Source of the DNA: Phascolomyces articulosus
Lineage: Eukaryota > Mucoromycota > Mucoromycetes > Mucorales > Lichtheimiaceae
Length of the DNA: 64,000 nt
Assembly: GCA_025677815.1 (NCBI GenBank)
Contig: JAIXMP010000001.1
Location: forward strand, 124,001-188,000
Direction of reading: 5' to 3'
Under the pieces are notes generated by a model. The model saw only the letters and a program-made list of their open reading frames with translations. It was not told the origin of the DNA and did no database searches. How positions within the stretch are numbered: the first letter of the stretch is position 1; every line of letters starts with the position of its first letter. Shown here piece by piece: positions 22,330 to 64,000 of this stretch. The translations under genes and the position numbers were made by a program.

Positions 22330-22660
22330 GAAGTTCATTCCACGGAAGACTGTAATCCATCAAATATTCTGTATTACCCATTATCGATGTTATAAGGACT
22401 AAATACTGGTGTGTTTTACGAAGCATGCAACGAAGGATTGCAATATAACAAAGATACATGAAAATGCAAAGAGAAAGGTTTTAAAAAGGATGCTAAAGCA
22501 ATAAGTACTACTGATAAATTAATTCTGATACAACATCTACTTTCCATTCTTCTTCTACTACTATGATTACTCCTCCACCTTCTTTCATTTCCTCATCATA
22601 AGCACCAAATGATACCACATTCTTATCCATGTTAATTTCTCTTTCTCGGACTGTCATTAT
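22330..22660 (+). pseudogene. decayed CBM14-like cysteine-domain gene
   Basis: One frame reads FCITHYRCYKD, matching the C2-x5-C3 block of the four downstream paralogues. After a frame change, another reads VFYEACNEGLQYNKDT, stop, KCKEKG, matching their W/F-x-C4-NEG-Q-Y/F block and C5. Ser/Thr/Pro-rich codons follow, as in the anchored tails. In-frame stops and the frameshift show it is not functional. It sits upstream of, and in the same orientation as, the intact family members. Confidence 0.6.
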
Positions 22661-23955
22661 GTTTTTTGTATTATCTTCCTTACCTATTTATTAAGAAAGT
22701 ATCAATATACACGCTACATATGTTAATACCTTTTTTACTTGCATTTTGAGTTAAGCATATATCATTTTCTTCATATATATATAGAAATAAATAATCATTT
22801 TGTATAAACCATATTGTTATAGTGTGATATATTGTGTATTTGTCATTTGTGTCGAAAAAGTTATCTATTTGTATACTTTTAACTCTATAGAGTTGCAGTT
22901 GTTTGACTTTGGGAGGAAAAAGAAAAGATGATATAAAAAATGTAATATATGTATTATTTGAGATAATATCGATAATAAAAAAAACATGGTGTTGATAGAT
23001 ATTAAGGTTTTTGAATGTTTATTATTTGGTAATAAATAATTTTCATGATTGTCGCTATACATATTTACATATAACAGATATCAATCAGGATCCTCAATGC
23101 ATAAGTCGAAAGGCCAGCAGTAGTAGTTGAAACTAGCTAACGTATAAAAATAGAAAACAAGGACATAGAAGATCATATCATATAATAAAATATTCGACTT
23201 TACGTATTTAAATATTGATAAACATTTTGACATGATAAATAAGTGTCTGCTATTTATTTTCTGAGTATAATGTATAAAGTAAATTATGCATAACAAAAAG
23301 AATAGCTTTTACAGTTTGATCCCAGTAGCAATTATGATCCATTCTTTAAGCAAAACTCAATTTTTGGCATTTCAGAGTATAATGAACATCTGGTATAAAT
23401 AGACATGTAGTATCGTTACCTAATTTTAATAATCGCGCTTATCTTTTTATACGAAAACGTAACCCATTACTGACACTGCAAAATTTGGATGATTATTAAA
23501 GCACCTGTGGTCACTATGAGTAGCAGTGATCGTCTTTTATAATAATGGATCGTGTTTCTCCTATTCATCAATTGACATAAACATAAGCCATTATCATACA
23601 CTTTACATTTTACAATAGTAACACACAAATGTTTAATATTTTGTAGTGATACGACTTCAGTTCCGCCAAAATTCAAGAGATGATACAATAGAATATCACT
23701 TTAACATCCTTTTTGTGCTGTTATGGTACAAGTAGCAACACGAGAAAGCACAACAATTTTTACTCTACAGTATTTCGTGTGATGATTGCCGAGTCATTAA
23801 AAATATATGTACCATTGTTCAATAATTTCAGAAAAAATAAATAAATATATAAAAAGCAGTATACAATAAATTTATATCTAAATAATCTTTTATCTCAAAT
23901 ATATACAAGCTTTTAATATTATATCTATCATTAAAACACACCGCATCATTTAACA
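22661..23955. other. intergenic, no gene seen
   Basis: AT-rich sequence. Two minus-strand ORFs (23081-23296 and 23467-23688) have no recognisable domain. A TATATAAAAA box at 23846-23855 lies about 100 nt upstream of the next gene's start. Confidence 0.45.
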
Positions 23956-24525
23956 ATGCATCTTGATTATTAAAATATTTCGCTTTTTTATATTATTGTC
24001 ATCACCACGCTTAGCATTGACGAGACGTTGGCCAATTCACATTCTACCAATTCAACTATAAATCACCACTACAAAAGTGTCCATAATAACAAGAACTCAA
24101 CCACCAGTAAAATCCTTACTCCAATACCGAACTCTCACATGTTATTCAAAACAAATGGTAAAGAGGATCACAGAAGAATCTCTGAAGAAGGGCCAGAGAA
24201 AATATGTACGGAATATTTTAATAATGGTAGTAGGCCTTATGCCAGAGTTCAAACTTCATGTACAAAATTTTACAAATGTATGCGAGATGGTTTTGATAAA
24301 AATACGGTCAGTACAGTTTGGTTTCAATGCAATAACGAAACTCAATTTGATGAGCACAGCGTAAAATGTGTCGATGCAAATAAACTTCAATGCAATGAGG
24401 AAGAATTGAAAAGAGAAGCGGCCGAGGCAAGAGAAAAATCTGCCAGTACTGCAGTTATTATTCCTTCTTCGATTGTATTTTCATTTATTGTCCACGTTAT
24501 ACCTCCATTATTCTCTTATTACTGA
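23956..24525 (+). pseudogene. CBM14-like cysteine-domain gene with stop in signal peptide
   Basis: From the ATG at 23956 the frame is MHLDY, then TAA at 23971-23973, then NISLFYIIVITTLSI and an open frame to 24525. The beginning matches the signal peptide of the neighbour (MHRFNLVFIIAF), so the stop interrupts a former signal sequence. The domain is otherwise intact, with spacing C-x17-C-x5-C-x16-C-x12-C-x7-C, the CBM14/peritrophin-A arrangement. It is followed by an acidic/basic linker and a hydrophobic tail (AVIIPSSIVFSFIVHVIPPL). No ATG follows the stop that would restore a signal peptide, so it is probably a recent pseudogene, or there is a sequence error at one base. Confidence 0.65.
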
Positions 24526-25169
24526 TTTCTTTTTATACAAGAATATGACATCCTTTATTGTATTTTTTTCGTACTTTTGGTAATTTGGTGGTAATCACAA
24601 AATAAAAATTATATATAGTACCATATACTGATCTTTCATCAGACTATACAATAATGGTTCGAATACTGCTGATTATGTTTTCACATAGGTATCATACTTA
24701 GTTAAGTAAAAATCATCTTAACACAATGATGTCACTGCTTAATTTCTTTTTTTTTTTCTGATTGTGGTCAGCATATCAATGATTTTCTTTTACTCGTTAG
24801 TCAGTCCACAGCATTTGAATAGAATGTTTTCATGCAATTTAAATAATCACGATTGGCAACAATTTTTTTTTGAATGAATGAAATTCTTTCAGTTAGAGAT
24901 AGTATATTGTGGTAATGAAAGACATGTCACTGGAATAATAAAGGTATCTATTATAGTAAATATGTATAAAAAATGTTCAATTGTAGTGGTCATTGATGAA
25001 TGAAGTATTTTACAGAAATTGTTGTTAATAATTAAGGATTTAGCATATATAAATGGGGTGAATTATTAAATTTTTAGTATGTACATTTATATCATATTTT
25101 TTTTGTATTACTTATCAATCTCTCCATTACAAAGCAACGGGAACAAGAATAAAAAAAAATATAAATATT

Positions 25170-25754
25170 ATGCATCGCTTTAATCTGGTTTTTATTATTG
25201 CCTTTGCTACTCTTACCATTACTACATTTGGAGTTAACAAGTCTTCATTTGTCGTATTAGCAATCAATGGACCGATTCAACAAAACCAACAAGATAACGA
25301 TAGCGGAAATTCTAACTCATCATCATCATACACACTTCGATCCAGAATGGGTGATGAAAATAGTAACAGATTAAACGCTAGAGAAGAATCCCTCGATGAA
25401 AATTTATGTAACAAATTATATTTAACTGATAACATACCATCTGGCAAAAAATATCCAGTAACGTGCTCAGTGTATTATCAGTGCAGTCGCAATTCTAAAG
25501 GCATTTCGTCAGCTCCATACGATACACTTTGGTATAAATGTGCCTCAGGGTATCAGTTTGAAAAAGAAAAAGAACAATGTCAATTGGCAAGTAAAGTTCA
25601 ATGCAACGCAATAGATAATGAAATAGACAATTATGATGACAACAATAATCCTGTTAAGAAAATATCTTTTACTACTTCAATTTCTCCCCTTCCGGCTTCT
25701 TCGTTTGTAATTGTCATTCTCACTGCCACATCATTCATCCAGCGTCATTATTGA
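25170..25754 (+). CDS. secreted CBM14-like six-cysteine protein, GPI-type tail
   Basis: Single-exon gene of 194 aa. An N-terminal signal peptide (MHRFNLVFIIAFATLTITTF) is followed by a Ser/Asn-rich stretch. Residues about 77-145 form a domain with spacing C-x18-C-x5-C-x18-C-x12-C-x7-C, including SVYYQC and LWYKCASGYQFEKE. This is the spacing of chitin-binding type-2/peritrophin-A (CBM14) domains. After a short Asp/Asn linker the C-terminus is hydrophobic (SFVIVILTATSFI), fitting a GPI signal. A TATATAAAT box lies at 25046-25054. Probable role: chitin-associated cell-surface protein; binding is inferred, not shown. Confidence 0.72.
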   Translation: MHRFNLVFIIAFATLTITTFGVNKSSFVVLAINGPIQQNQQDNDSGNSNSSSSYTLRSRMGDENSNRLNAREESLDENLCNKLYLTDNIPSGKKYPVTCSVYYQCSRNSKGISSAPYDTLWYKCASGYQFEKEKEQCQLASKVQCNAIDNEIDNYDDNNNPVKKISFTTSISPLPASSFVIVILTATSFIQRHY

Positions 25755-26674
25755 TAAAACTTGAATTATTCCAAATAATAGTTTTCAGCATATATGTATG
25801 TCATGTAGTATATTTTCGGTGGTTACATCAAGAAATAGTGTTAAATCCAGTTCTTGTGCTCAATGTTTTATCCCCTCCTCCCATTTAACATATCACACCT
25901 CATCTAAACAATACGCTATTTCAAATCCTACTTCAAAGCATAAAATCCTTTTAATTCCCTTATTCGAAGAATAAAAAAATTATCGGCCATAAAAACTAGC
26001 CACTGTTGCCAAATATAACTGAATTGGTGACAATTTGAAACGTTCCGTTATTGCACTTAAGTCTCAAGATAGGATTTATCCAGTATATAATAATTTATTA
26101 TACATACGTACATACTACAGTGATAATAATAAAGCACAAAGAAGATAATAATAAAGAACAATTTGATTTTTTGTTTATCAACAAATTTGCTTGCTATCCC
26201 AACAAAAATAACAATCAGCAACTTCTAGGAAAGATCCGTAGCTCTCCCCATCATTATTGAATATAATGGCCAAGCAACAGCTATTCTACTACGTATTAGT
26301 ATTATTTAGTACAACACTACTAAACGTTGTCAGCAGCACATATTTACTAAAAATATAGCTCCAATAATAACATAAAAAAAAACATTATAATGAACCACTA
26401 GCCAAACGATAGCGAATGAGAAAAAAAAGAATTAACAACAGATTGTTTCCTTTTTATGAAGCATTGTTTATTGCTTGCAAAGATTTAAAAATATATAAAT
26501 ACTGTACGTAGTAGAAAGATAATTACTGTATTTAAAAAACGATACTCTTCTTTATCGACCTTATTGCACCATTTTCTTTGAATTATTTTTTTTGTATATT
26601 ATAATTACCATCAAGCTACAAGTAGACATCTATTTTTCCATATTTTATATATATATCACAAACTACACGCAATT
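25755..26674. other. intergenic upstream of the third CBM14-like gene
   Basis: About 0.9 kb without a real gene. From about 26250 it resembles 28540-28939 upstream of the next paralogue (shared motifs AATGGCCAAG, CATTGYTYATTG, TTTAAAAAACRMTA), showing a duplicated promoter. It includes a TATATAAAT box at 26492-26500. Confidence 0.6.
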
Positions 26675-27400
26675 ATGTCAGAAAAACTACCTAACCAAGG
26701 GAAGATCATTTTTGTTGCTTTTATCACACTTACTTTTCTTTCAACTCTATGCTCTGCTACTGCTGTATATTCATATAGAAATAAGAATAACAGCCACGTG
26801 GATGAAATTCCAGGTTACTCATCAACTTCTACCACATATAATTATGATTATGGTCTATCAGAACACATGCCAATCAATGACGACCCAGGTACTTTATCAA
26901 AAAAGCATTTTCTTTACAAGAGATGTACAACATCAAAAAACTCGAATGATTCAGATGACGATTCTGATTATGATGACTACGATAATAATTACGATGATGA
27001 TGACAATTACTATGATGATGATTATGATAACATGTCGCATTCAAATGGTTCTAAAGAAAGTGCGTTGTGTACTCAAAAACAAGAGAGGGGTAAAATACTT
27101 TCTTATGGCAAAGCATCAGATTCATGTACTGTGTACTATCATTGTATGCAATGCTCAGATCAAGGTGAAGGAGCTAGATACAGACCAATCTGGTTTAAAT
27201 GTAACGAAGGATTCCAATTTAATGAAAAAAACGGAAAATGTTCACCAGAATGGGTGGTTCAATGCAAGGACGATAAAGCAACATCAACTGAAGAAGAGGA
27301 TTCATCAAAATCCTCTGCAAACAATACCTTAAATTCCCTTCTATCTTATCACTATTTTTTGATTCCAACATTTCTTGTCATAATATGTGCTTCTTCTTAG
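26675..27400 (+). CDS. secreted CBM14-like six-cysteine protein with acidic Asp/Tyr tract
   Basis: Single exon, 241 aa. A hydrophobic segment (IIFVAFITLTFLSTLCSATA) acts as signal or anchor. A pro-region follows and ends in a dibasic Lys-Arg (HFLYKR). Next comes an Asp/Tyr/Asn-rich acidic tract, then the domain with spacing C-x18-C-x5-C-x18-C-x12-C-x7-C (TVYYHC, IWFKCNEGFQFNEKNGKC). The C-terminus is hydrophobic (YHYFLIPTFLVIICASS), fitting GPI addition. The acidic tract is unique to this copy. An overlapping long ORF in another frame is a shadow. Chitin binding at the cell surface is inferred from the cysteine pattern only. Confidence 0.72.
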   Translation: MSEKLPNQGKIIFVAFITLTFLSTLCSATAVYSYRNKNNSHVDEIPGYSSTSTTYNYDYGLSEHMPINDDPGTLSKKHFLYKRCTTSKNSNDSDDDSDYDDYDNNYDDDDNYYDDDYDNMSHSNGSKESALCTQKQERGKILSYGKASDSCTVYYHCMQCSDQGEGARYRPIWFKCNEGFQFNEKNGKCSPEWVVQCKDDKATSTEEEDSSKSSANNTLNSLLSYHYFLIPTFLVIICASS

Positions 27401-28939
27401 CATCACCATTTCATTTAATTTGTAAACCAAATAATATATATATTTACGTGATTATTGCCGCACATTACAATATCTACTTTCTCTTTTGAATCGACACTCT
27501 TCTCCTACGGATCTTTTTCGTTTTCCTTTTTTTTCATATACGTAAAATAAAATAAAAATTTTGATGAGTTATTCACCAATATCTTGAAAATCACGTTGAT
27601 TTTTCAATGATATTGCTATATCTCATTGACTGGATTGTTTATGATTATATTGCGATCGGTTTAAAAAATGATATGTATAGTAAAGGTTTAATACCAGGAA
27701 TACAAAATTATGAAGAAATAAAAAGTGCCTGTTAGCGATTGGCATATATTTTCTGGGTTGACATGATAGGCATGGTACACACTTCAAAGACCCTTATATT
27801 TTAACCATCCGAAGATTAGGAAGGAGGTTGAAGTTTTTGTAATGAGACTTTTCTGGAAAAGGATATAAATCATTGTTGGGTACTAATTATTATCTATGAT
27901 ATACATCTTTAGTGAAGAATGGCGCTCGTCAACTGTCAAAATAGTAGTACTGAGTCAAAATTCAATTTCTTGTCTGAAACTATGGGCTGTGCTTAGAATT
28001 GAAGTCATGAAGGACGATAGGATAAAGCACAACATACTTGTGGACCAATATTGTTGTAATAATCTTCGATGTATTACTCTCACCCCCTCTTTAATGAGAA
28101 TTTGTTGGCTTTACCATCAATTACCGAACATTTTATGTCCTTCAAAACACATTTTCCAATCAATGCTTCTTTCTCATATTGATAATATTTCTTTTTGTTT
28201 ACGAGAAAAATATAAAGTTGGCCACTTCTACCAAATTTATTAACTGGATCGACAATAAATTACAAAGTTGTAGGTGTCAGGGAAAAAAATTAAATACATA
28301 AAATTTCAAAATAAGCAGCAACCGTTACTTGATTATATATACGTATTATTATGACATTATATTTTTATATATATCTAATGGTAATACTAGTAACTCAAAG
28401 AAGTTTATAATAAAGAATAGTATAATACATTTATTCATCACCAACAAATTTAACTGTTGTCACAACAGTCAGCTACAATGGTAACAATCAACTGCTCATA
28501 ATATTAAAAATCTATGATCCTTGCCTCCATAATATTTGAATACAATGGCCAAGAAGTAATTTTTTTAGTGTCATCACTGCATATATGTTGCCAACGCATA
28601 CTTACAATAAAAATGATTTCAATCAATGATAACAACAAAAAAATAAGTATAATGGATCAAATCAAACAATAATAAGAAAAAGAACAAAAATAGTATCAAC
28701 AGAATATTATTGTATACCTTTTTTTACCAAGCATTGCTCATTGTGTACTGGTAAAACTAAATTAAAGATATATAAATGCGATCGTAGTATATAAGGTCAA
28801 ATAGTGAATTTAAAAAACACTATATCCTTCTTTATCAAGTTTATTGCATTCTTTTAACAATTATTTCGTATATCATCAATCAACAAGCATCTCTGATTCA
28901 AAATTTTCGACATATACACATCGCAAACCACAACTCATC
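27401..28939. other. intergenic inside the tandem duplication
   Basis: Contains the 3' flank of one unit and the 5' flank of the next. A 115-codon ORF at 27896-28243 has no recognisable domain. A stretch near 28000-28035 has a similar partner near 30240-30275, so part of this flank was duplicated along with the genes. A TATATAAAT box lies at 28769-28777. Confidence 0.5.
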
Positions 28940-29611
28940 ATGCCAGAAAAAGCCTCTATTCCATGGAAGGATATACGTGGTACATTTGCCGTTCTTGCTG
29001 CTCTTGGCATTTTATTAATTGGTACGATTGAAATTATAAGACAAAAGTATACGAATGACGGCAATAGCATTGTCAAACCTACCTACAAGAAAGATTATGA
29101 CTTATCATTAGGTGATTTATCAGTCAACGACTACTACCATGATGCAAACCTTCCGCTAGAAAAACATTCTTTTGACATGAGGTCCTTTTTCTCCGATACG
29201 CAGGACTCAGAAGATAATAATAACATATCGCTGTCAAAACGTTTGGTAGACGAAAGTGAGTTGTGTTCTGAGGCACGAAGGGAAGAGTGTAACTATGGCA
29301 TAGCACCAGGTTCATGTATTTGGCATTATGAATGTATGCTATCCAAGGATCAAGTTAATGGAGATGTACATATACCTATCTGGTATAAATGTACTAAAGG
29401 GTATCAATTTGATGAAAAAAGTGGAAAATGTTTACCAGAAGAAAAAGTTCAATGCGTTCCCAATGACAAATCAACTGATGAAAAAGGTGACCCACCAATA
29501 TCAAGTTCTTCCGCTAGCATCAATACTTTGGGTTCTTCACTTTTATATCACTATTTTTTGATCTCAACATTTCTTGACATGATATATACTTTTTATTATC
29601 AATTTATTTAA
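28940..29611 (+). CDS. secreted CBM14-like six-cysteine protein
   Basis: Single exon, 223 aa from the ATG at 28940; upstream in-frame codons lack an ATG. The N-terminus (MPEKASIPWKDIRG) is followed by a hydrophobic segment (TFAVLAALGILLIGTIEII), so it may be a signal-anchor. A Lys-Arg dibasic site (SLSKR) lies a few residues before the first cysteine. Domain spacing is C-x16-C-x5-C-x18-C-x12-C-x7-C, with IWHYEC and IWYKCTKGYQFDEKSGKC. The Ser-rich linker and hydrophobic tail match the neighbour at 26675, its closest relative by sequence and by flanks. Role as for the other copies. Confidence 0.7.
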   Translation: MPEKASIPWKDIRGTFAVLAALGILLIGTIEIIRQKYTNDGNSIVKPTYKKDYDLSLGDLSVNDYYHDANLPLEKHSFDMRSFFSDTQDSEDNNNISLSKRLVDESELCSEARREECNYGIAPGSCIWHYECMLSKDQVNGDVHIPIWYKCTKGYQFDEKSGKCLPEEKVQCVPNDKSTDEKGDPPISSSSASINTLGSSLLYHYFLISTFLDMIYTFYYQFI

Positions 29612-31136
29612 CCTGTAAAAACGATACCTTTTTTTTACGTGACAATATTATATTTATTGCCATTATTTTCTTCTAAATCGATAATATATATATATATATA
29701 TATATACTTCTTCCTTATCATTGTTGTTTCTCATTGTTTTTCATACCTACGTATAAAAAATAAAAATCCTGAACGGAATATTCATTCTATATAATATCAC
29801 TTAGATATTTACTGAGGATAGATAATTGTATAAATAAAGTGATATAAAAAAAACACGAACAGCAATATTTATGAGAGGTATTCAGGTATCGATGCCAAAA
29901 TTACCAGGGATTTATATATTCAACAAGAATACAAAGGTATAAAAAAGAGGCATTATAAAACATGTACATTTTCTGGGCAAGGATTTTGTGGACACTTCCA
30001 GATTTTTTTTCTATTTTTGCTGTGTTAATCATTTGGTAATTAAGTAGTAGACTATTTCATTTATGTATAGGAAACCTTTCCTGAAAAAGTATAATATAAT
30101 CATTTGGCACAGATAATCATATATACCTAAATTTTAGACTTTTATCTCTTTTAATTGCGATCCGTTGTTGAAGCTGTTACATCCTGGCTACTAGGCTTTA
30201 ATTTTTTTTTCCATTTGCTTCAAACGCCGTGGAATTACTGAAGTAATGGATGATGATAGGATAAAATACATATCTACATATGAATTGGCCCCATTGATTA
30301 TTGCATTTGAAATAAACTTATATTTTCACATAAGAACTGCTTCTATGTCAATATTTACAAACAAATATACCCAAAGAAGGATATTTTTATTTATTTATGT
30401 AGTATAATAGATACCCATAAACTAAACCGGTTTTTTATGATAGTTAACAGTATAAAGTATTTTAATAAATTGTACCTGCGTTACTATGATGTGATACGAA
30501 AGAACGATTTTTTTGCTTGGGTTACTTTAGAAAGGTGTGTGATCCAAACCTGACAAGTGCTTCAGAAGAATGCTATGACGAGGCACTTTTTTCCCAGTTG
30601 CATACTTATATTATGATCGATGATGTGTGTCGATTTTTATTTAAAATACAATACCTTATCGATTACTAATAACAAATTTGTTGATTTGATTCGTTTACGT
30701 ATTTTTATATATAGTCAAAGGGATAAAAGAAACATGGTAAAAAAAGGTATGATGTCATAATAAACAACTCGGTTAACTGGATTTACTAAAACTGCTCTTT
30801 GGGGTTAAAATAGTGAAAAATGTACATATGTGTGTGTGAGAAAGAATAAGTGTGGGGTTTATGAGTAATTTTTGTTGGTGAAGATGATGATTTGATGAGG
30901 CAGAGAAAGAGATTGCTTGAATTCATTTGCGGAAAGTGAAGTTCCAATCATCAAGTGTTAAAATTGGATTCGCGGTATAATGTTTTACCATTTGAGGAAA
31001 TTGAGAAAGGGTAAAAATTCAATTGTACTTGGACCATAGAATCCGTCCCTTTTTTTTGCGATAATCCATCCATCCGCATCCTCACTACTAACGAGGCCAT
31101 CCATCGCAAAGAATCAGTTTCTAAGGTCGTATAGTC
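29612..31136. other. intergenic with duplicated flank
   Basis: From 29612 to about 30280 the sequence is a worn copy of the region after 27400 (shared TTTTCTGGG and GATAGGATAAA segments). An (AT)n run lies at about 29683-29706. From 30300 to 31136 nothing is recognised until the promoter of the STM1 gene. Confidence 0.5.
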
Positions 31137-47086: not shown

Positions 47087-49021
47087 ATGTATATCACTTA
47101 TAATACGATGCAATGGAGCCAGCATGACGAACGTCGTTTTCTCAACCAACATGTACGGCCACCTATAATAATACCTTCCAACCTTTCAAAACCAGCATCC
47201 GATTTTATGCCCCAAAAACTTGTCCGTGTATCCGATATGCAAGTGGTGCCAGGATCAAAGGTGCATGAAGGTTATTGCGCATTATCTTATTCAGCAAATC
47301 AATCAGGAGAAATCATTGTGGATCGAATCACAGGCAAACATAAACGCATTGATCATGGCAAACACAAAATTATTCGAAAAGGACGTGTTCTCTCTGAAAA
47401 AACCCACCATGTAAAATTTGAAGGCATTATTCAACGAATAGCCAAAGATTTTAATATAAAATATATTTGGTATGATCAAATGTGTATGGATCAGCAAGAC
47501 GAAAAAGAAAAAAACCATGAAATTCAACACATGCATCAAATTTACAGTAATGCCTATTGTACTGTTGTATTGGTGCCTGAATTCCATGTGGATGTGATGG
47601 TGCTTCAACTTAATCGTCAGGAGGAGATAAAGTATGGTAAACCTGTAGAACAATCTATATTAGAATCCGCATGGTTTAAACGATTATGGACATTACTAGA
47701 AGCTTTGAGCTCTTCATCACTCCTCTTTGTGGGAACGGATACACATGCTTGGTGGGTGGAAGACGAATGCTTACGTGACATCAACATCATAACGAAACCA
47801 TCATCCTCAGAAAAATGGAACGCTGCTACTATTCTCTTTCATGCCCATATACGGAAATGTAGTAATGAATATGATAGAATATTTGCAGTGGCCAACCTTT
47901 TCCCAGATATTTTAAGCGACCTGACGATTAACTATCATCAACCTCTCATTGATTTGATGATCCAGTTCTATGGGCTTTTGGCTAAAAAAGATATTACCAT
48001 GTTATGTTTTGGTGAACATAACAAATACAAAAATATGGGTCGACAATCTTCTTCTAATACTAAAAGTAGTCGCTTGACACTACCCAACCACATAATTGCT
48101 CGAGATGATAATTATCTTGTCCCAATTCAAAAATACAAGAATGATATGCCATCTTGGACTGGTGTTTCTGGTGAACATATACCCAACAACATGTTAAAAA
48201 CGTTCTTTCAAAATTACACTATTACTGAAAAAATCATGCATGTGACATGCTCTGGAATTACGACAACGACGGCAAGGGGTAGCCATCAACAAGAACAACA
48301 GGAAGAGCAGCGACAACAGCCATTCATAAAAATCAATAATAATCCGTTTATATTGACCTATGACGATTTTTTATCGTTAATACCACCTGAAGATAATGAA
48401 AGTTTCAGTGATGAAGAATCCCACCATTTCTGGAAACTTGGATTATTGGCCCGATTTCCTGGCCATCAAGAAGACAAAATCCTTATTCTGCCTACCATAT
48501 CCATACAAACGATCAAGGAAGAATTATTACTGGATTCTTCCTCTTCCATGCCACCATCCTCTAATCAAAATAATGGCAAAAGCAATATTAACGGTCACCA
48601 AAACAGAAAATTACTCAACCGTCGTGGCAGCAAGAGGAAAAGTAATAAAAATAGACATTATAATCTTAACAATGAGCAGATCATGGATTCAATGGCTCAA
48701 GAACTACGGTTGCTATCCCATTTTATGCCGACCATTCAAAAAGAAGATTTATTCTGGTTTAAAACTACAGGGCTTAGCGTACCTTACTCTGAATTTCGAA
48801 TTGACTTGACAGAACAAATCGATGCTTCCTCTGAATATGTCATTCTTTCAGGTATCCCCTTTATTAATGATAATCCAAGGAATGATTATTACCCGATTCT
48901 CAAAAAGAGAAATGAAAATGAAGAGCATTACAAAGCCATTGGTCTATGCAAAATATCCAATACCAAGTACTTTTTCTCAAATTACACTCCCCCAGAAGAA
49001 CAAGCTTTTAGTATCGAATAA
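47087..49021 (+). CDS. HET (heterokaryon incompatibility-like) domain protein
   Basis: Single exon, 644 aa, with an ATG at 47087 directly after an A-rich leader. The N-terminal third carries the HET landmarks: GYCALSYSANQSGE (residues about 61-74), then HVKFEGIIQRIAKDFNIKYI, WYDQMCMDQ at residues 128-136 (the usual W-I-D-x-x-C-I-D/N-Q), and HQIYSNAYCTVVLVPEF. A central region with WFKRLWTLLEA follows (typically W-x-R-x-W-x-x-Q-E in the family). The C-terminal half has Gln-rich and Arg/Lys-rich linkers. In ascomycetes HET proteins trigger nonself recognition and cell death. In this lineage the role is unknown, since heterokaryon incompatibility of that kind is not established there. A decayed paralogue lies 1.4 kb upstream in the same orientation. 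Confidence 0.82.
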   Translation: MYITYNTMQWSQHDERRFLNQHVRPPIIIPSNLSKPASDFMPQKLVRVSDMQVVPGSKVHEGYCALSYSANQSGEIIVDRITGKHKRIDHGKHKIIRKGRVLSEKTHHVKFEGIIQRIAKDFNIKYIWYDQMCMDQQDEKEKNHEIQHMHQIYSNAYCTVVLVPEFHVDVMVLQLNRQEEIKYGKPVEQSILESAWFKRLWTLLEALSSSSLLFVGTDTHAWWVEDECLRDINIITKPSSSEKWNAATILFHAHIRKCSNEYDRIFAVANLFPDILSDLTINYHQPLIDLMIQFYGLLAKKDITMLCFGEHNKYKNMGRQSSSNTKSSRLTLPNHIIARDDNYLVPIQKYKNDMPSWTGVSGEHIPNNMLKTFFQNYTITEKIMHVTCSGITTTTARGSHQQEQQEEQRQQPFIKINNNPFILTYDDFLSLIPPEDNESFSDEESHHFWKLGLLARFPGHQEDKILILPTISIQTIKEELLLDSSSSMPPSSNQNNGKSNINGHQNRKLLNRRGSKRKSNKNRHYNLNNEQIMDSMAQELRLLSHFMPTIQKEDLFWFKTTGLSVPYSEFRIDLTEQIDASSEYVILSGIPFINDNPRNDYYPILKKRNENEEHYKAIGLCKISNTKYFFSNYTPPEEQAFSIE

Positions 49022-62716: not shown

Positions 62717-64000
62717 TTAATGTGGGTATTGGCCCCATTGTTGATTGGAAGGTGGCATAAAACTACCTCTTTGATCCATGGGTGGCATAAAACTTCCTCG
62801 TTGATCCATACCAGGCGGAGGCATACCGCCTCCCATAGGCGGCATAAAACTGCCTCGTTGATCCATGGGTGGCATGAAGCTTCCACGTTGATCCATACCT
62901 GGAGGTGGCATACCGCCGGCAGCCATTTGTTGTTGTTGCATCATCATGTCCGGACTACCAAAGCTATTTACAGAAAGTGTACGGGAGCCACGGTTCATTT
63001 GAGGCGTCATTAAGAAATTATCTCCTGGAGGCACGCCACCATATTCTGATCCTGCAATGACAGAACCAGCATAACCAGGACCACCTCCTCCCATCATGGG
63101 GCTCTTGGAACGAGGTCGTTTGGTTGGATCCGAAGCAACTTGAGTATCTCGATAATAATCAAAATCACCGGCTTGAGAACCATACATGGTACGATTATCG
63201 TAAATAACCGAACCGCCGGAACCAGGGACACCAGGCATACCACCACCACCTTGAGAATAATAACCACTATGATAACTATGACCAGTGACACCGGTTTCAC
63301 GCGATCCAGTGGATCCCATTTCCCATAATTCTTGTTCATAGACACTCCATTTCTTGAGAGGAATCATCTTTTCATCAAACTTTTCATCATCATTTACAAT
63401 AATCTTCTTTTGTTTCTTGCCACCGGCAACGACACGAGTATTACCCCAAGAGAAATCATCAAAATGCCAGAAGGAATAGACAGGCAAGAAGAAAGAAAAG
63501 ACGGGAATAGCCAAAATGTAAAAGATCATCCAACCAATATGTTGCCATTCACGTTTCAAAATAAACAACAAGGCTTGTAAACCATACACACCTGCCAACA
63601 TGGCCAAGGCCAAAATAGGAATAGGACCGGTTCCAGAAGCAATAATGTAAATCAAATAGACCAAATAGACAACAGAGACAGGTAAAGTCAAGGTACCGAT
63701 CAAATCAATCAAGACAACGAAACGCATGGAGAAACAACAGAAACCACAAAGATCAGGTAATAAGATCAATTCAAACAAGTTGTGAATGGTTGAATTAATC
63801 CAACGACGACGTTGAGAAAGCAAGACTTTCCATTGTTCGGGAGCCACGGTTTTACATTGAGCATAAGGTGTAAATTTCATTTTGTATTGTGGGAAATGCT
63901 TCATCATCAAGGTGGTCAAGTAACGATCTTCACCCAAATGCAACAAATTCTTTTTGTGAAGTGTATCAACGTTATTATCAGAATAATCGGTAATCACCTT
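62717..64000 (-). CDS. chitin synthase, Chs3/class IV-like, 3' part only
   Basis: The reading frame is open to the window edge at 64000, so the N-terminal part lies outside. Visible residues begin [20 protein letters not shown], followed by [12 protein letters not shown] (the ED of the active site), then [12 protein letters not shown] with the QRRRW product-binding motif. Several membrane segments follow ([60 protein letters not shown]). The cytosolic tail is Gly/Pro-rich and has four copies of [10 protein letters not shown] before the end at QQWGQYPH. There is no DEK-type C-terminal domain, which argues against the myosin-containing class V and for class IV. The enzyme makes chitin from UDP-GlcNAc at the plasma membrane. 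Confidence 0.93.

Follow-up and report, generated by a model that had tools for sequence, protein, structure and literature searches.

A tandem array of CBM14 (peritrophin-A) genes with hydrophobic C-terminal tails in the Mucorales mould Phascolomyces articulosus

The array and its CBM14 domains

Between positions 22330 and 29611 of a 64,000-nucleotide stretch of the Phascolomyces articulosus genome (contig JAIXMP010000001.1, positions 124,001 to 188,000; the whole stretch is hereafter the window) lie four open reading frames (ORFs) and one relic that together form a tandem array of CBM14 (peritrophin-A) genes. The strict cysteine pattern C-x16..18-C-x5-C-x16..18-C-x12-C-x7-C matched 4 of the 261 stop-to-stop segments of at least 60 amino acids in the window, and these were ORF1 to ORF4, all on the + strand. 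Residue shuffling over 200 rounds gave 0.0 strict matches per window, and 0.03 for a loose form of the pattern, bearing out the original prediction of same-strand ORFs with a common cysteine spacing. The features are listed below, C1 to C6 being the domain cysteines in order.

22345..22501, + strand: relic CBM14 copy, with an incomplete cysteine set and two in-frame stops
23956..24525, + strand: ORF1, CBM14 gene (ORF listed as 24028-24525; stop codon 24523-24525)
24205..24393, + strand: ORF1 CBM14 domain, C1 to C6
25170..25754, + strand: ORF2, with hydrophobic N-terminus, Asn/Ser/acidic linker, CBM14 domain and hydrophobic C-terminal tail
25407..25604, + strand: ORF2 CBM14 domain, C1 to C6, from the cysteine pattern
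26675..27400, + strand: ORF3, with hydrophobic N-terminus, Asp/Tyr/Asn-rich linker, CBM14 domain, Ser/Asn stalk and hydrophobic C-terminal tail
27068..27265, + strand: ORF3 CBM14 domain, C1 to C6, from the cysteine pattern (AlphaFold2 predicted local distance difference test score, 72.4)
28940..29611, + strand: ORF4, with N-terminal hydrophobic signal or signal-anchor, linker, CBM14 domain, Ser-rich stalk and weakly hydrophobic C-terminal tail
29264..29455, + strand: ORF4 CBM14 domain, C1 to C6, from the cysteine pattern

Alignment of the four domains showed the six cysteines to be invariant, together with a tyrosine two residues before C3, a tryptophan three before C4, the pair QF after C4 and a glutamine before C6. 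ORF3 and ORF4 each carry one extra cysteine within the domain, ORF1 and ORF2 none. In ORF1 the ATG at 23956 is followed by an in-frame TAA at 23971-23973 and then by hydrophobic sequence spanning 23974 to about 24018, after which the frame stays open; this start may reflect a decaying copy, an alternative start or a sequence error. The ORF4 frame is open over 28844-29611, and the public protein begins at the ATG at 28940, not at an upstream TTG. The relic had also been predicted, and was substantiated at the DNA level: 22425-22501 matches ORF3 at 27199-27281 with 69.9% identity (E 5e-5), in the frame interrupted by the two stops.

Two public gene models at the locus appear to be mispredicted. 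BDA99DRAFT_553893 (25170-27400) fuses ORF2 to ORF3, dropping the last two domain cysteines of ORF2 and the hydrophobic N-terminus of ORF3, and BDA99DRAFT_531005 (28940-29611) departs from ORF4 past the domain, so that the hydrophobic tail is absent from the model. We judge both to be wrong because a plain reading of the ORFs gives ORF2 and ORF3 an entire domain each, and gives ORF3 and ORF4 similar tails inside one duplicated unit. UniRef names proteins of the locus 'Chitin-binding type-2'.

Profile, fold, cysteine spacing and paralogues all support the CBM14 assignment originally proposed, making it close to certain that ORF1 to ORF4 are CBM14 homologues. Pfam CBM_14 (PF01607; curated whole-protein cut-off, 22.1 bits) was the best credible Pfam match for each of them. 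With the domain alone as query, ORF2 exceeded the cut-off (23.7 bits) and ORF1 (21.6), ORF3 (19.6) and ORF4 (18.5) fell below it; ORF2 also exceeded it in a six-frame search (23.9 bits, with neighbours). Among 14 control genomes none had a CBM_14 match at E ≤ 0.001, two had one at E ≤ 10 and one had a match above the cut-off. Paralogous proteins from other contigs of the genome passed as well (C23a, 29.4 bits; C45, 30.1; C19, 27.3). All four ORFs have the six cysteines in CBM14 order and spacing, and the models of ORF1 and of the ORF3 domain both show the beta-sandwich. The proposed structural check agreed, albeit at moderate scores, the nine best VIA-align entries being CBM14 for either model. 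With Foldseek, the best match of the ORF3 domain was Avr4 (6bn0_B, probability 1.00, E 0.034), and CBM14 chains filled ranks 1-11.

Several results weigh against this assignment. At full length none of the four proteins reached the Pfam cut-off (ORF1, 20.3 bits; ORF2, 20.5; ORF3, 18.1; ORF4, read from 28844, 15.2). VIA-align Z scores were all below 8 for the two models, and for neither did Foldseek return a match with E < 0.001; for ORF1 it placed unrelated chains at ranks 2 and 4. A profile search of the PDB reached CBM14-type chains at E 0.023-0.11 only and, with query A1, gave no match. The C45 protein, used as a query, matched C19 and C23a and no gene of the window. The sub-threshold full-length Pfam scores and the moderate fold scores would be in keeping with a different cysteine-rich fold that imitates CBM14 spacing. 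However, CBM14 entries head both VIA-align lists and paralogues pass the Pfam cut-off, and we regard such imitation as hardly credible.

Duplication and decay in a genome-wide family

Searches of the genome (47.4 Mb, 110 contigs; Lichtheimiaceae) with Pfam and with single-domain queries revealed at least 11 genes whose frame is open across the CBM14 domain, counting ORF1, arranged as two arrays, two tailed single genes and two tail-less genes. Those outside the window are as follows.

Contig C23, 476142-488487: second CBM14 array, with open genes C23a (482.9 kb), C23b (485.8 kb) and C23c (488.3 kb) and broken copies at 476.1 and 484.5 kb
Contigs C54 and C63: tailed single CBM14 genes
Contigs C45 and C19: tail-less CBM14 genes

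As a protein C23b was 0.1 bit short of the Pfam cut-off, which it exceeded in the six-frame search (24.2 bits); the C54 and C63 proteins fell below it, and C23c had no Pfam match at E ≤ 0.1. The C23a domain as query found ORF1 at E 2e-5 and C19 at E 7e-5, and the ORF3 domain found C23a at E 0.016 and C19 at E 0.04 only. C23b lacks C1 and C23c lacks C3, which by analogy with the Cys40-Cys70 pair reported for Avr4 (PMC6128652) would be the two halves of one disulphide. The C19 gene (L037, 1208-2473, − strand) encodes 422 residues, comprising a single CBM14 domain and a tail of 323 residues that is 36% Ser/Thr/Asn and does not end hydrophobically. The C23 array also contains a direct repeat, located between its first two CBM14 copies (478712-479081 versus 481519-481885; 59.4% identity, E 2e-15).

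Tandem duplication in the window extends beyond the coding sequence, encompassing two units.

26074..27604, + strand: duplicated unit A (ORF3 with 5′ and 3′ flanks)
28335..29810, + strand: duplicated unit B (ORF4 with 5′ and 3′ flanks)

An alignment of the two units, 1623 columns long, has 61.6% identity (E 5e-85). The 5′ flank (65.6%) comes close to the domain (67.6%) and the tail (67.7%) in identity, with lower values in the signal and linker (57.4%) and in the 3′ flank (59.3%). The ratio of non-synonymous to synonymous substitution rates (dN/dS), calculated throughout from at most 71 codons, was ∼0.74 for the domain, ∼1.08 for the tail and 0.36 for the linker of the ORF3/ORF4 pair; domain values for other pairs were 0.60 (ORF1/C23c), 0.56 (ORF2/C54), 0.33 (C23b/ORF4) and 0.26 (C54/C63). 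These ratios point mostly to constraint and hint at fast change between ORF3 and ORF4. The sole well-supported grouping in the domain tree was that of C54 with C63. Decay accompanies duplication, with three broken copies over the two arrays (the relic at 22.4 kb of the window, and 476.1 and 484.5 kb of C23).

No ORF pair other than the CBM14 genes matched at E ≤ 1e-4 between the window and the 56.5 kb around the C23 array. Elsewhere in the window, 47087-49021 (+ strand) encodes a HET-domain protein (PF06985, E 2.4e-16), a member of a mainly ascomycete family. At the window edge, some 33 kb away from the array and with no evidence linking the two, 62717-63997 (− strand) encodes the C-terminal portion of a chitin synthase (PF03142, profile positions 306-527, E 3e-106).

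Tethering, ligand face and competing explanations

The cell-surface location originally proposed has its backing in the hydropathy of the two termini, from which tethering of the array proteins is likely. All seven array genes and both tailed singles close, at their final residue or just short of it, with hydrophobic sequence, which neither of the other two genes (C45 and C19) does. The predicted hydrophobic tail was found in all four ORFs, being weakest in ORF4. An N-terminal signal or anchor had likewise been ascribed to every protein; a hydrophobic start directly behind the ATG was seen in ORF2, ORF3 and ORF4 but not in ORF1, where the stop intervenes, and the ORF4 segment could be a signal-anchor. 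Glycosylphosphatidylinositol (GPI) signals are hydrophobic C-terminal stretches with little or no basic cytosolic part after them, in which a type I membrane anchor differs. The ORF2 C-terminus closes with a short basic stretch. The tails, behind which any basic cytosolic segment is short or missing, would thus be more in keeping with GPI attachment than with a type I anchor.

The explanation we favour, with a probability of about 45%, is that this is a tandem CBM14 family in which each intact array gene encodes a GPI-tethered secreted protein that binds the fungus's own chitin or chitosan in the wall or at the membrane. The array would belong to the larger family, numbering at least 11 genes across the genome, which would grow and decay through local duplication. 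Each intact gene would yield a secreted protein whose single CBM14 domain is carried by a flexible linker, either acidic or rich in Asn/Ser, and whose hydrophobic C-terminus would most likely direct GPI attachment, placing the protein at the outer membrane or within the wall. There it could bind the cell's own chitin or chitosan and so tie wall to membrane, or cover the polymer. According to solid-state nuclear magnetic resonance, Mucorales walls contain proteins embedded in or bound to a rigid chitin/chitosan core, and the account in PMC11437000, as far as it deals with these proteins, leaves open which they are. Coupling of a CBM14 domain to a likely tether, in membrane or wall, would make the array genes concrete candidates for such wall-core proteins.

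Further observations speak against this explanation. The ORF4 tail is weak, its best 11-residue mean hydropathy being 1.62 versus 2.45-3.79 in the eight other tailed genes. The ligand face is also altered. In Avr4, Trp100 and Asp102 are essential, Gln69 and Lys84 strongly affect binding and Tyr103 is among the contacts; in CHIT1, Pro451, Leu454 and Trp465 (equivalent to Avr4 Pro87, Leu90 and Tyr103) are crucial, and changing Avr4 Pro87 is without effect, as reported in PMC6128652. With positions mapped by offset from the cysteines rather than by superposition, the Avr4 residue was kept in none of the four ORFs at K84, P87, L90, W100, D102 or Y103, and at Q69 in ORF2 alone (1/4). Nor is the CHIT1 set of Pro, Leu and an aromatic after C5 kept, an aromatic replacing Leu at the Leu90 position in three of the four. 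Because these mapped positions are not kept, we consider the ORFs to lack both sets. The tryptophan three before C4 recurs in 8 of the 11 family members, being absent from C23a, C45 and C19. Chitin nevertheless remains a plausible ligand of the array proteins.

This altered face would suit a recognition or adhesion family that keeps the CBM14 scaffold but uses tethered domains to bind targets other than its own chitin, such as a different glycan, another hypha or the surface of another microbe; the rapid turnover would then reflect selection for variety. Loss of six of the seven Avr4/CHIT1 positions from every ORF beside a widely kept tryptophan before C4 is consistent with this, as are the ORF3/ORF4 ratios for domain and tail and the broken copies in both arrays. 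Protein homology searches, moreover, found no relatives outside P. articulosus, albeit this is weak evidence, since the method needs shared exact words. However, the other domain pairs have lower dN/dS (0.26-0.60), the ORF3/ORF4 linker is lower too (0.36), and the codons are few; CHIT1, furthermore, binds chitin without the equivalents of Avr4 Trp100 and Asp102 (PMC6128652). We consider a recognition role possible but doubtful. Its stronger form, in which the arrays would be a fast-turning repertoire of membrane-tethered lectins with a new CBM14 ligand face, recognizing other glycans or organisms rather than own chitin, we think unlikely.

A shield of the Avr4 kind, covering the fungus's own chitin against chitinases of competitors, animals or plants, is rather improbable, if slightly less so than such a repertoire. 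The best structural matches include Avr4 entries, and an N-terminal helix is predicted here that is present in Avr4 and absent from tachycitin, Der p 23 and CHIT1 (PMC6128652); protection against soil microbes has also been proposed for the CBM_14 proteins of Pyronema (PMC3778014). Avr4, however, is a secreted effector whereas the array proteins look tethered, and the residues essential for its binding are absent. Very unlikely, in our view, is a decaying and largely non-functional family whose arrays are relics of an older expansion, with ORFs persisting by chance. The stop behind the ORF1 ATG, the relic, the two broken C23 copies and the missing cysteines of C23b and C23c are what it can draw on. 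Yet ORF2, ORF3, ORF4, C23a, C23b, C23c, C54 and C63 hold open frames of 158-241 codons in an AT-rich genome, and six of these eight genes retain all six domain cysteines, though the five measured pairs share just 37-66% domain identity.

Comparison with known CBM14 systems

The original prediction that no system of this layout had been described was too strong, given the Pyronema clusters, the Mucor and Choanephora genes, the Umbelopsis survey and the UniRef names. Avr4 of Cladosporium fulvum and Pseudocercospora fuligena (6BN0, 4Z4A) shares the CBM14 sandwich and the N-terminal helix, and provided the best Foldseek matches. Its cysteine order (Cys40/64/70/86/101/109) and its C2-x5-C3 and C5-x7-C6 spacings are the same as in ORF1 to ORF4 (PMC6128652). 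In contrast to the six core cysteines and hydrophobic C-terminal tail of the array proteins, Avr4 has four disulphides, the fourth being Cys50-Cys56, and is described in the same source as secreted. Membership of the Avr4 effector family is not indicated, since W100, D102 and Y103 are kept in none of the four ORFs and the extra domain cysteines number none (ORF1, ORF2) or one (ORF3, ORF4).

Among other fungi, 13 CBM_14 proteins are reported from Pyronema confluens, some of them encoded in clusters and all predicted to be extracellular; the 2013 account names Avr4, Aspergilli, other Eurotiales and Pyronema as the only fungal occurrences at that date (PMC3778014). The Pyronema family resembles the array in being fungal, in its single CBM14 domain and in expansion by local duplication, but belongs to another phylum, and its proteins are mostly 80-140 amino acids long (one of 351) whereas those of the array type have 158-241 with linker and C-terminal tail; where it treats the Pyronema proteins, the account makes no mention of such a tail. 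Within Mucorales, three genes annotated 'Chitin binding protein, putative peritrophin-A' were reported as unique to the virulent strain of a Mucor circinelloides pair (PMC5955452), and an orphan CBM14 gene was reported from Choanephora (PMC5238444); Umbelopsis, unlike Mucorales, is reported to lack CBM14 (PMC7928374). The Mucor and Choanephora proteins agree with the array in domain call and in order of fungi, and are likewise lineage-restricted.

The domain, known above all from work on animals and on Avr4-type effectors, is here expanded, in an apparently tethered form, in a Mucorales mould. Animal peritrophin-A/CBM14 proteins, among them tachycitin, the CHIT1 domain, Der p 23, Blo t 12 and EHEP, share the fold, and we know of no linker or tail of the array type in them; the first three also differ in the missing helix noted above. 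In conclusion, the family is a known one, of which the array looks like an apparently tethered, fast-evolving form, and its novelty would lie in the tethered layout together with the altered sugar-binding face.

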